Source: an uncultured Oscillibacter sp. (GTDB lineage Bacteria > Bacillota > Clostridia > Oscillospirales > Oscillospiraceae). Taken from it: DNA of 38,851 nt. The stretch is from positions 1-38,851 of the forward strand of contig CATNDT010000006.1 in assembly GCA_950097035.1 (NCBI GenBank), in the 5' to 3' direction. The notes beneath the pieces are model-generated. The model ran no database searches and was not told the DNA's origin. It saw only the letters and a list, made by a program, of their open reading frames with translations. The first letter of the stretch is position 1. Every line of letters starts with the position of its first letter. A program made the position numbers and the translations under genes. Below, piece by piece: positions 1-6,107 of the stretch.

Positions 1-1840
1 ATGCCGTTTGCGTCTGCTCCGGGTGCGTTTGCCGGTATTGCTCCAATTCCTCCGGGGTCAGGTATCGGCCTTCTTCAATCAACTGCCGCAGCCGTTTTTC
101 AGCGTCAGACCAGGATATAGTGACTTCCGCAGTCTCTTTGTCCTCGCCGTTTTTCTGTATTGTGATGCCAACATCAGGGCGATAATCCACCCATCCCTGT
201 GTCCCATCCGGCAGCTTATGCCCTGCGGCAACACGGCCAAACGCTGCACTGACCGCGCCCACCGTGTCCTCAACGCTCAAATTCTGCTGATAGATTTCAT
301 AAATCCGCAGATTTTGGAAATGAAGCGGCGCTTCAAATCGGAGTTGTGCGTCGATGTCAGCCTGGGTGATCTCCAGGGCTGGGAGCTGTTCCAAGTGGTC
401 GCTCTGGTACTTCTCCAATTCCTCCGGCGTAAGGTAACTGCCCTCCTGGATGAGCTGGCGAATACGTTTTTCCACAGCGGGCCACTTCACCGTAACTTCC
501 GTCCTTGGATGGTAGCGCACCAATCTCAACCCGGTGTCAGGGCGGTAATCAGTGATACCCGATGCGCCATCCAGGAATGTATGATTGCCGCCGGAATATC
601 CATATTCCTGTTTGAGCGCAGCAACCGCGTCTTTGGCAGAAATGTTCCGCTGATACATGGTGAAAATCCGCAGCCTGCCCGAATACTGCCGCAGAATCGT
701 GTCAATTTCTGCCTGGGAAATGGAAGAAGCAGAGGGCGCGTCCGCGCTCTCTGCTTCTCGAATGGTCTCCATCTGCTCCCGCTGGGACGGGATTTCCGGG
801 GGCATAAAACTTAGCTGTAAATCAGCTCCGACATGATAACTTCCTCCGCCTGTGCCTTGCAGGTGTTCATCAGTCCCACCCACTTCATCTGATCGCTGGC
901 TTTCAACTGCTCCGTGGCCCCCGCCGCTTTCGCCAACTGCGGCATCATCCGCTCCAGACGGCTGTTCGCCGCGTCCTCGATCTCCAACAGGTGGCTGAAC
1001 AGGGTCCCGTTCAGCGTCATGCGGTTGAACAGGCCCGGTCGATGCTCCTTCAGATACGTCCGGCGCATCCTCCCGTACTTGCCAAGGTCCCGGTCCGGCT
1101 GCTCCGGCAGGGCCAGATTGGGAATCAGGTAATCTCCCACTTGGGTGTAGGTCAGATTGTTCTCCATGTTCGGCGTTCCTTTCTGCGGATTTTTCCCGCT
1201 CATATTTTTTGATGGTGACTTCGATCTGCCGCAGCACCGTCTCGCTCCCCAGGCTGACCGCCGTACCCAGCTCCGTGATGGTGTCCTGGGTGTTGAAGTC
1301 AAAAATGCTCAGGAAATCCTCATGTTCAAAGTAGTTTTCCGGCTCCAGGCCGCAGCGGGACATGAGGGTGTATGCGATGCTGACGGCGGCGGCGTTTCGG
1401 AACTGCGCTCCGATGTTGAACTCATCATACTCCTCCAAAAAGCTGCCGTCAACGATGCGGAGGATGTCCTGCTGGTGATCGTCCCAATATTCCGCCGCAA
1501 GCTGGGCGGCGATCCTCTCAAACTGTTCCACGAGGTCGTTGCCGGACACGTCAAACCGCTGCTCCAGCGCCGCCGATACCGTGTCCTGATATTCCTCCCG
1601 GTACTTCCACAGCTTGGGCCGGGTTTCCTCTCCGCCGCCGGTGTCAGCCACATCGAACACATAGCGCAGAAAGGGCCTGCTGCCGCTGTTGTCGATGATG
1701 GCGATGCCCGTGGCCCCCCGACGCACATACCGGCGCATCCGCTGATTCCAGAAATCATATTCCGCGCAGGCGGTGGCGTTGGGCCGCTGGGCGTGAATCA
1801 GGAGCTGTTCGGGATATGGATATTTGTATCTTTTATTCAT
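1..1840 (-). CDS. Giant ICE/conjugative-transposon helicase/methylase-type protein, N-terminally truncated and 3'-incomplete (runs off window)
   Basis: Manual minus-strand translation from ATG at 1840 is open to the window edge: MNKRYKYPYPEQLLIHAQRPNATACAEYDFWNQRMRRYVRRGATGIAIID...FMPPEIPSQREQ...YLTPEELEKYQ...YLTPEELEQYR. Absent from the ORF track because no stop lies in the window. Confidence 0.8.
   Translation of the reverse strand, partial: MNKRYKYPYPEQLLIHAQRPNATACAEYDFWNQRMRRYVRRGATGIAIIDNSGSRPFLRYVFDVADTGGGEETRPKLWKYREEYQDTVSAALEQRFDVSGNDLVEQFERIAAQLAAEYWDDHQQDILRIVDGSFLEEYDEFNIGAQFRNAAAVSIAYTLMSRCGLEPENYFEHEDFLSIFDFNTQDTITELGTAVSLGSETVLRQIEVTIKKYEREKSAERNAEHGEQSDLHPSGRLPDSQSGPAGAAGPGPWQVREDAPDVSEGASTGPVQPHDAERDPVQPPVGDRGRGEQPSGADDAAVGESGGGHGAVESQRSDEVGGTDEHLQGTGGGSYHVGADLQLSFMPPEIPSQREQMETIREAESADAPSASSISQAEIDTILRQYSGRLRIFTMYQRNISAKDAVAALKQEYGYSGGNHTFLDGASGITDYRPDTGLRLVRYHPRTEVTVKWPAVEKRIRQLIQEGSYLTPEELEKYQSDHLEQLPALEITQADIDAQLRFEAPLHFQNLRIYEIYQQNLSVEDTVGAVSAAFGRVAAGHKLPDGTQGWVDYRPDVGITIQKNGEDKETAEVTISWSDAEKRLRQLIEEGRYLTPEELEQYRQTHPEQTQTA
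811..1167 (-). CDS. tnpV: TnpV-family transposon-encoded protein, overprinted within the giant ORF
   Basis: MENNLTYTQVGDYLIPNLALPEQ...YLKEHRP...TEQLKASDQMKWVGLMN...ELIYS*. SD GAAAGGAA upstream of ATG at 1167. Aligns with the second TnpV at 5638-6012. Confidence 0.8.
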   Translation of the reverse strand: MENNLTYTQVGDYLIPNLALPEQPDRDLGKYGRMRRTYLKEHRPGLFNRMTLNGTLFSHLLEIEDAANSRLERMMPQLAKAAGATEQLKASDQMKWVGLMNTCKAQAEEVIMSELIYS

Positions 1841-2060: not shown

Positions 2061-2346
2061 AGTGGCTCCTTTCTTCGGTACTATAAATTATTTTTAACTA
2101 TGAAATAACTTCATCAATTTCAAAAAAATTGATTTGATAAAAAACGTAACTGTTCAATTAACAAGAAGAAACCAATCAACTTTTTTCAAGGGTTGACAAA
2201 TGATACGATACAGAAGGAGCAGAAACGGGTAGTTACTTTGCAATCTCACCCGCAGTCTGCTCCCATTTTTCAAATAAAAATTTTCATCTGTTCTTATCTG
2301 TCAAAGCCTTAAATTTCAAGTCTAAAAAGCTATGTTTTTCACAACT

Positions 2347-3933
2347 TCATACATATAATTGTGTTCGGCAAACATTAAGATAGATTGCCAAAGTTGCCAG
2401 CAGTATTAGACAAGTAATGCCAAACATTATCATCATTTGGTAATGCGGAAAGATTATACAAAGATACAATGGCGTTAAGCTGCTTGCCATTCCACCTCCA
2501 ACTGTAGCTAAAACTGAAATTGCCCCACCTTTTACCGCATAATACTCACTCGTCCAATCATACTTAGGAAACTTGATATTCAGATAAACACCAAGAACTG
2601 AAATGAAAAAAGCATATACCGTAGGGATAATAAACAACAGTACAGTCTGCATCAAGGAACACGGAATCGCAATTCTGATAAAAATTGCACTAACATATAA
2701 AACAGGAAGTATCACTGTTAAATTTACCGCAATTTTAGAATTGTACACTGTCCTTGCCTGCGTTGGAGCGGAACACATAATCCATCGGTTTTTTCCCTCT
2801 AAAGACAAGGATGCTGCCGTGGTAGAAGTCATAGTCACAAAAATGGCAAGCGCAATCGGCATAATATTTTGAATGATGCTCATGATTCCCATCGTTTCTA
2901 TTTGCTGTCGTAAAGCAGGCGGCATAAAAAATGCTGCCCCAAGTGCTACAACGAAAAGCAGGACAATTCCAATACATGAATTCAAGGCATAAATCGTACA
3001 TGAACTTAATCGGCGAAGCTCCTTTTTATACAATGCCATAAACGGAGATGAAGATTTTAATGTTCCCATTTTATAATCTTTTTTTGCATAATGTGAGAAT
3101 ACCGCTGTATTCAGTCTTTTATAGTAATGAGAAACAATCGTTATGAAAGCAATGCCCAGCAACAGGGAAACAGCGGCAAAGATAACAAAGCTTGCCCAAT
3201 CATTATGTAATAAGGCATTTGTAAAAAGAATAGCAGGCGGATAAAATTTGTTTACCGCTTCTGCCATTGCAACGCCTAAATTAGTTATCTGCGCCTCATC
3301 CATTGATTGTGTTTTTGCGGAAGCAAATACAATCATCAGTACGGCAGCCGTACTCAAAACCAATGAAAAAACATTTTTGTGTCTTGAATGTGATGAAACG
3401 GCAACAATTAGAACACCTAATGATAGAGAAATAATCATAGGAATAATCGGTGTCAAAAATAACGCACCCACTAAAAACAGGTAACTAAAAATCGGCGGAT
3501 GTTCGTATACGACATAGATAATGCTTGACGGCAGCATGGCTATAAAGCCAATTATCAGATTGATGAGATACAGCATCGTTATACGGCTTGTTACGATAGA
3601 AATCGTTCTTACAGGCATGGACATAACCATATCATAATCTTTTAATCCAATAAGAACCCCTGTACTTTTAACGAATGTAAGGGTCAAAGTTGCTAAGGAG
3701 CAGACCACTACCATGAGCGTTGGCAATGCTTTGCTGAGTCCCGCTTCTGCCATGCTGTTGCTGAATTTCACCGTATAGACTACAAGAATAGCAATGGCGG
3801 TAAGTCCTAAAGCACCAACAATCGCAGAACGTTGTTTTTCCTGTTTATCACGAGAATGAATCAATCGGTTAATTCCAAAAAGATTATATAACTGCATCCT
3901 CAAAAGATACTTATACTTGCCTTTCATTTTCAA
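2347..3933 (-). CDS. ABC transporter permease (ABC-2-like, multi-TM)
   Basis: 528 aa with many hydrophobic segments; overlaps the start of the downstream-oriented ATPase gene. Confidence 0.8.
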   Translation of the reverse strand: MKMKGKYKYLLRMQLYNLFGINRLIHSRDKQEKQRSAIVGALGLTAIAILVVYTVKFSNSMAEAGLSKALPTLMVVVCSLATLTLTFVKSTGVLIGLKDYDMVMSMPVRTISIVTSRITMLYLINLIIGFIAMLPSSIIYVVYEHPPIFSYLFLVGALFLTPIIPMIISLSLGVLIVAVSSHSRHKNVFSLVLSTAAVLMIVFASAKTQSMDEAQITNLGVAMAEAVNKFYPPAILFTNALLHNDWASFVIFAAVSLLLGIAFITIVSHYYKRLNTAVFSHYAKKDYKMGTLKSSSPFMALYKKELRRLSSCTIYALNSCIGIVLLFVVALGAAFFMPPALRQQIETMGIMSIIQNIMPIALAIFVTMTSTTAASLSLEGKNRWIMCSAPTQARTVYNSKIAVNLTVILPVLYVSAIFIRIAIPCSLMQTVLLFIIPTVYAFFISVLGVYLNIKFPKYDWTSEYYAVKGGAISVLATVGGGMASSLTPLYLCIIFPHYQMMIMFGITCLILLATLAIYLNVCRTQLYV

Positions 3934-5637: not shown

Positions 5638-6012
5638 TTATACGAAGATTATTTCGTTATTCACAATCCCCCTCGCACACGCCCTTATGTTATTCATTCT
5701 TCCTGTCCATTCTAAGGCGTTTTCTGCCTTTAACTGTTCCGTTATGCCTTGCTCCTGTTTCAAGCCCTCTATGAGCCTTTTAAAGCGTTCCTGCGCCTGC
5801 CTGTCGATGTCGGCAAGGTAGGCGTTGAGCCTGCCGCTTGTGAGAAGATTGATGTATGTAACCTTTCGGTACTTCTTCAGATAGTCCAGATGCCGCTGTC
5901 CCCATGTGCCTATCGGCTGTTCTTTTTCGGCGGGTATGGTTAAGCATGGTATTAAATAATCTCCTTGCCACTCGTATTTGCCGCCTAATTCCTCAAATAA
6001 TGATTTTGCCAT
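5638..6012 (-). CDS. tnpV: TnpV-family transposon-encoded protein (stand-alone copy)
   Basis: GDYLIPCLTIPAEKEQPIGTWGQRHLDYLKKYR...TEQLKAENALEWTGRMNNIRACARGIVNNEIIFV. Confidence 0.75.
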   Translation of the reverse strand: MAKSLFEELGGKYEWQGDYLIPCLTIPAEKEQPIGTWGQRHLDYLKKYRKVTYINLLTSGRLNAYLADIDRQAQERFKRLIEGLKQEQGITEQLKAENALEWTGRMNNIRACARGIVNNEIIFV

Positions 6013-6107
6013 CTTCTAGTTCCTCCAAATAAGATATTCACTCCACATTATTGTGTCTGTTGTCTTAAACGCAATTTTGAGTTTTCTCCTTATCTGGTTT
6101 CACTCAT

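Follow-up and report, generated by a model that had tools for sequence, protein, structure and literature searches.

The tnpV gene of this window (the whole 38,851-nucleotide stretch of DNA analysed) lies entirely inside the giant SNF2-helicase/methylase-type gene of an integrative and conjugative element (ICE), on the same strand and in a different frame, and we consider it very probable that the two are a true and ancient overlapping gene pair of which both proteins are inferred to be made, a judgement reached without expression, Ribo-seq or proteomic data. The preliminary description of this DNA had proposed such a pair from the single copy seen here. Beyond that view, the pair is family-wide and ancient, its phase is invariant, and the stand-alone TnpVs do not form a single clade.

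The features of the window are collected in Table 1. The embedded TnpV matches Pfam family PF14198 with an E-value of 3e-43 over positions 1–111 of the 111-position profile, where the gathering cut-off is 27 bits and the score 146.6, and thus meets both requirements for membership (a score above the cut-off and a full profile). The minus-strand giant frame, read from 1840, has no stop across tnpV and stays open up to the contig end, giving 613 residues. Position 1 of each TnpV codon is position 2 of a giant codon (phase +1), and the embedding is full, over 119 codons. The sequence AGAAAGGA, located 9 nt 5' of the tnpV ATG, is a Shine-Dalgarno (SD) site. The coordinates and the giant-frame translation quoted in the preliminary description, which had placed tnpV with its own SD wholly within the giant ORF in a different frame, were verified, as was the resemblance it had seen to the second TnpV of the window; this stand-alone homologue carries four stops in the giant-equivalent phase.

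Table 1. Features of the giant gene, the embedded tnpV and the stand-alone homologue in the window
Feature	Positions	Strand	Evidence
Giant ICE gene, SNF2-helicase/methylase-type polyvalent protein, N-terminal 613 aa only	2..1840	-	99% identical to L039
N-terminal helical domain of the giant (alignment A1), conserved among elements of Bacillota	1190..1840	-	
SD site GAAAGGA, within giant codons, 9 nt before the tnpV ATG	1177..1183	-	
tnpV, embedded, +1 phase relative to the giant, 118 aa, ATG at 1167 and TAA at 811	811..1167	-	PF14198, 146.6 bits
Giant linker, aa 223–353, predicted disordered; tnpV read in the giant frame, with a few codons on either side	782..1174	-	pLDDT ~25, composition
Post-linker giant sequence, two copies of a repeated alpha/beta unit	2..781	-	
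Stand-alone TnpV homologue, 34% identical to the embedded TnpV	5638..6012	-	PF14198, 150.7 bits

Because the window is one entire contig (G000:C6) of a fragmented assembly (339 contigs, 81% complete), the giant gene lacks its 3' end. At the 5' end, the DNA of two other loci, L039 and L040, both of which hold long-ORF versions, is 99% identical to the window over 1828 bases; the homology ends at 1828, and about 45 codons are missing from the start of the giant. Their place is taken by sequence with an HTH gene (1833–2060), the 3' end of which overlaps the new ATG of the giant, and the upstream element sequence was found on a different contig of the same genome. The junction at 1828 could be a real recombination or insertion, or an assembly join. 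The window copy of giant and tnpV, recombined at its 5' end (~1828) and cut at its 3' end by the contig edge, does not qualify as a complete giant gene, and it stops before the domains that characterize the longer versions. The giant ORF of L039, of 3237 residues, contains LPD25, DUF7007, SNF2-related and Helicase_C domains, and that of L077 also contains SNF2-type domains plus a weak Eco57I-like methylase match, so that in both loci an SNF2 helicase and its accompanying domains are found in one ORF.

In order to survey homologues, searches were made with the giant N-terminal domain (A1) alone, which brought up 80 named-genome and 30 class-level loci, and recovery was for this reason unbiased towards TnpV. 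TnpV follows the N-terminal domain in the +1 phase in 79 of the 80 named-genome loci and in all 30 class-level loci, with some loci in the two sets cut by a contig end; the single exception, L083, breaks off within TnpV. Among the hosts are Roseburia inulinivorans, Ruminococcus bromii, Oscillibacter valericigenes, Eisenbergiella porci and the actinomycete Collinsella aerofaciens. The same arrangement is present in more distant giants from Cohnella, Virgibacillus, Enterococcus faecalis, E. hirae and Listeria plasmids, and the embedded ORF of E. faecalis clears the Pfam cut-off unaided (32.4 bits). A divergent version of 136 residues, which occurs in the Clostridia loci L221–L223 and, on a conjugative plasmid of Streptococcus agalactiae, within snf2, aligns to TnpV by profile comparison only (probability 83%, E 1e-5). 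A scan of viral contigs with a single window protein as query gave no match, although a profile query did work, and blastn against plasmids and phages returned short matches only. Four giants (L030, L215, L216 and L220) lack TnpV, and their linkers are unrelated to the TnpV-type linker, so the case that would have spoken against the pair, a linker kept at the protein level with TnpV absent, did not arise. The Pro/Glu-rich linker of L030 belongs to a giant placed among TnpV-bearing ones, and this locus is taken as a TnpV loss on account of that placement and its unrelated linker. The existence of TnpV-less giants shows that the giant tolerates absence of the region. Separately, in L023 (160–1500) the pair breaks off at codon 78 of TnpV and continues on the opposite strand beside giant C-terminal sequence, as the result of either a rearrangement or an assembly error, and L322, a more distant phylum member, has two divergent TnpV-like ORFs in tandem with no adjoining giant N-terminal domain.

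A total of 197 non-redundant full-length TnpV matches were available for statistics on the overlap, 131 of which adjoin a giant N-terminal domain while the other 66 do not and served as controls; the null was obtained by synonymous-codon shuffling, which preserves each protein and its codon usage. All 131 adjoining copies share the +1 phase; 130 of them leave the giant frame without a stop across TnpV, where 14 would be expected to. Among the controls, 64 of 66 carry stops in the giant-equivalent phase, with a mean of 6. T endings of TnpV codons before GA, AA or AG, which create a giant-frame stop, occur once in 4647 cases in embedded copies compared with 398 in 2257 in controls. In a separate phylum-level sample, the new TnpVs adjoining an N-terminal domain are all in the +1 phase without a stop and every other TnpV has stops. 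Two ORFs that are open in different frames and conserved as such in homologues are thereby found both in the main set and in an independent one, and by this sequence comparison the opening of the giant frame goes far beyond chance. The only embedded copy with a giant-frame stop in TnpV is that of L193 (TnpV at 2221–2563, reverse strand), in which TnpV itself is intact; interruption of the giant in homologues, which would have refuted the proposal, is confined to this one locus among 131.

Both frames are under purifying selection by rates taken from disjoint close pairs. For TnpV, dNN/dSN is 0.24–0.31 (calculated at transition weights 1 and 2), and omega of the giant, dSN/dSS, is 0.49 (95% CI 0.34–0.76). 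Changes that are synonymous in TnpV and nonsynonymous in the giant accumulate at 0.58 times the synonymous rate of the flanking giant N-terminal domain, and doubly synonymous sites show about the full flank dS. The comparison of homologues and the per-frame dN/dS that had been suggested as checks thus both came out in favour of two coding frames. In composition, the linker has 1 Cys against 54.6 expected from synonymous shuffling, with Lys at 0.41 and Ser at 1.61 times the shuffle expectation; no depletion of Cys or Lys is seen in the controls. On this sequence evidence the giant reading of the tnpV bases is Cys-free, Lys-poor and weakly constrained (omega ~0.5).

In the AlphaFold2 model of the giant, residues 223–353 are disordered, without secondary structure, and folded regions lie on either side. 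The predicted disorder coincides with the TnpV stretch, in agreement with the earlier suggestion that the low-complexity linker is TnpV read out of frame. For TnpV the same method predicts a confident fold (pLDDT 88.7) featuring a beta hairpin and five helices. No solved structure of TnpV was found, and this model gave no PDB match below E 0.001 and no significant match in a viral library, and it fails the test for a recombination directionality factor of the Xis type, namely a fold like that of solved excisionases.

The origin of TnpV is less certain. In a midpoint-rooted tree of TnpV the deepest branches are embedded copies and stand-alone copies are nested among them. The label changes about 10 times between embedded and stand-alone, at least 3 of these changes being forced by strongly supported branches, and a single clade of stand-alone TnpVs is rejected (p-AU 0.0003). 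The root itself was not inferred other than by midpoint, and few stand-alone copies from Bacilli were sampled. That the stand-alone copies are not one clade suggests repeated escape from the embedded state, which is easier to imagine than repeated entry because all embedded copies share one site and one phase; descent of several stand-alone TnpVs from the embedded form is likely but unproven. Our tentative proposal, which falls somewhat short of what we would call probable, is that all TnpVs trace back to overprinting within a helicase gene of an ancient Bacillota conjugative element, where a new fold arose in the region encoding the disordered linker and later escaped several times. On the same reading, the escaped copies came to serve serine-recombinase transposons and mobilizable elements as a free-standing accessory gene. 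Because the root is not established the overprinting birth remains a proposal, and of the term "overprinted" used in the preliminary description the overlap is confirmed while the strict sense, that TnpV originated there, is plausible and not shown. It is also quite possible, if not to be expected, that the stand-alone form is the older and that a free tnpV was captured once, early, into a giant that happened to read through. Such a capture would fit the Tn4451-like elements, where TnpV functions from a gene of its own (PMC3158075), and the existence of giants with a short linker without TnpV, but it sits poorly with the nesting of stand-alone copies (under a root that was not inferred) and with the rejection of their single clade, and insertion repeated at one site and in one phase is unlikely. 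Capture concerns origin only and is compatible with a real pair today.

As to how TnpV is expressed, 129 of 130 embedded copies have an SD match of 4 nt or more, and 129 of 130 start with ATG. The conserved SD lies in one giant phase in 112 of 121 copies, from which it follows that part of its conservation could reflect shared ancestry or giant coding; the phase of the SD relative to the giant frame was therefore regarded as only weakly informative as proof of selection at the nucleotide level. Internal initiation at tnpV is supported, and not proven, by the conserved SD and ATG, and production of both proteins is inferred from the same indirect evidence. SD-like elements stimulate +1 shifts in prfB, and with this precedent TnpV might be read as a C-terminal extension of the giant N-terminal domain that a +1 frameshift, stimulated by the SD-like element, would produce. 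The +1 frame is indeed open for some distance 5' of the ATG in many copies, but the near-universal ATG at normal SD spacing, and the fact that stand-alone TnpVs begin at the equivalent place, make frameshifting look improbable.

More doubtful still is the possibility that only TnpV is real, with chance or GC bias keeping the giant frame open and two genes in fact making up the giant. Two results could be taken to favour it. In synonymous shuffles of the window tnpV the giant frame stays open in 10.6% of cases (P = 0.11), and openness in the window alone was consequently dropped as evidence for dual coding. Secondly, giant-frame dNN/dNS does not differ from the controls, and changes affecting both proteins are not rarer, relative to the controls, than those affecting TnpV only. 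The linker is accordingly constrained in kind and not residue by residue; dNN/dNS was set aside as biased for testing the giant frame, the values in controls being similar, and dSN/dSS and residue depletion were used in its place. Against chance or GC bias stand the excess of open frames and the almost complete avoidance of stop-making codon endings across homologues, the Cys and Lys depletion and the giant omega, and controls matched for GC content (0.5–0.6) still average 3.1 stops. That only the giant is real, with the TnpV frame a fossil or chance ORF, has in its favour that some plasmid annotations give the giant alone and is scarcely tenable for a Pfam family with free-standing members whose embedded copies retain low dN/dS, start codon, SD and a confident fold.

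The annotations themselves are divided. RefSeq-derived plasmid records of Cohnella and Monoglobus have TnpV annotated at the embedded site and no giant; in that of Cohnella (L259, NZ_CP051681.1) an antisense "hypothetical protein" is placed over the giant N-terminal domain and the plasmid gene table holds no giant gene. Records of E. faecalis, Virgibacillus and E. hirae have the giant annotated and not TnpV. Where checked, annotation gives one or the other and never both, which is an indication only because the plasmid gene table is incomplete. NCBI rules bar fully embedded genes unless individually justified (PMC8665328). In the literature consulted there was nothing relevant on TnpV with an overlapping gene or on overprinting with ICE, and the words "TnpV" and "overlapping" are both absent from the searched text of the polyvalent-protein paper.

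With the overlapping pair as the preferred reading, a single mRNA would carry the giant gene of the element. Ribosomes in the giant frame would read the tnpV region as a Cys-free, acidic, Ser- and Gly-rich disordered linker joining the N-terminal domain to the repeats that follow, while those initiating at the internal GAAAGGAG and ATG would read the +1 frame and produce TnpV as a small folded helical protein. TnpV made from the giant's mRNA may then act as an accessory factor in excision or integration of the element, a role that is inferred and not shown, and through embedding, the amount of TnpV made and its transmission would be coupled to the giant transfer gene. Since the predicted fold resembles nothing known, the case for a recombination role draws on gene neighbours and published work. 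All five stand-alone TnpVs checked (L061, L263, L285, L294 and L298) lie directly 3' of large serine recombinase genes, in an operon arrangement; in L263 the TnpV and recombinase frames share a few bases. For the TnpV of Tn4451, homology with lambda Xis led to a postulated role in excision (PMC3158075). A trailing TnpV accompanies the embedded one in some elements: in L069 (17790–18125) and L237 a second TnpV, with 86% DNA identity to the stand-alone TnpV of the window (5638–6030), is found immediately 3' of the end of the giant.

Each half of the pair has known relatives. The TnpVs of Tn4451/Tn4453 and Tn6104–Tn6106 belong to the same family (PF14198) and are stand-alone copies beside large serine recombinases, as are several here, but the Tn4451-type TnpV is an ordinary separate gene whereas the present one is fully embedded in another. 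The giant shares SNF2-related, Helicase_C and LPD25 domains with the SNF2-helicase/adenine-methylase polyvalent proteins, including the snf2 product of streptococcal ICEs (PMC5512222, PMC9815147). Like tnpV, the pop and ano genes are contained wholly or almost wholly in another gene in a different frame (PMC7103648, PMC5960689), but those are antisense genes of E. coli O157:H7, whereas tnpV is on the same strand, encodes a named protein family and is conserved across Bacillota. Same-strand overlaps of neighbouring genes share phase 1 with tnpV, this being the commoner phase among long bacterial overlaps, but they occur at gene junctions and do not embed a gene of 119 codons (PMC2542354).

In cellular DNA, a long gene lying wholly within another is usually written off as annotation noise, and such bacterial examples as the literature search yielded are antisense genes from a single E. 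coli lineage. The present pair recurs in well over 100 loci across Bacillota, in mobile elements of gut Firmicutes and of others, and its dual coding can be measured directly because natural controls exist in the form of stand-alone TnpVs and TnpV-less giants; as far as these comparisons of sequence go, the capacity of one stretch of DNA to encode both proteins has been maintained over a very long time. The arrangement bears on how a giant transfer protein and a small accessory factor are coordinated in conjugative elements, and on whether gene families arise by overprinting and then escape. If the proposed origin is true, TnpV would be a bacterial gene family whose overprinting birthplace still holds a functional copy.
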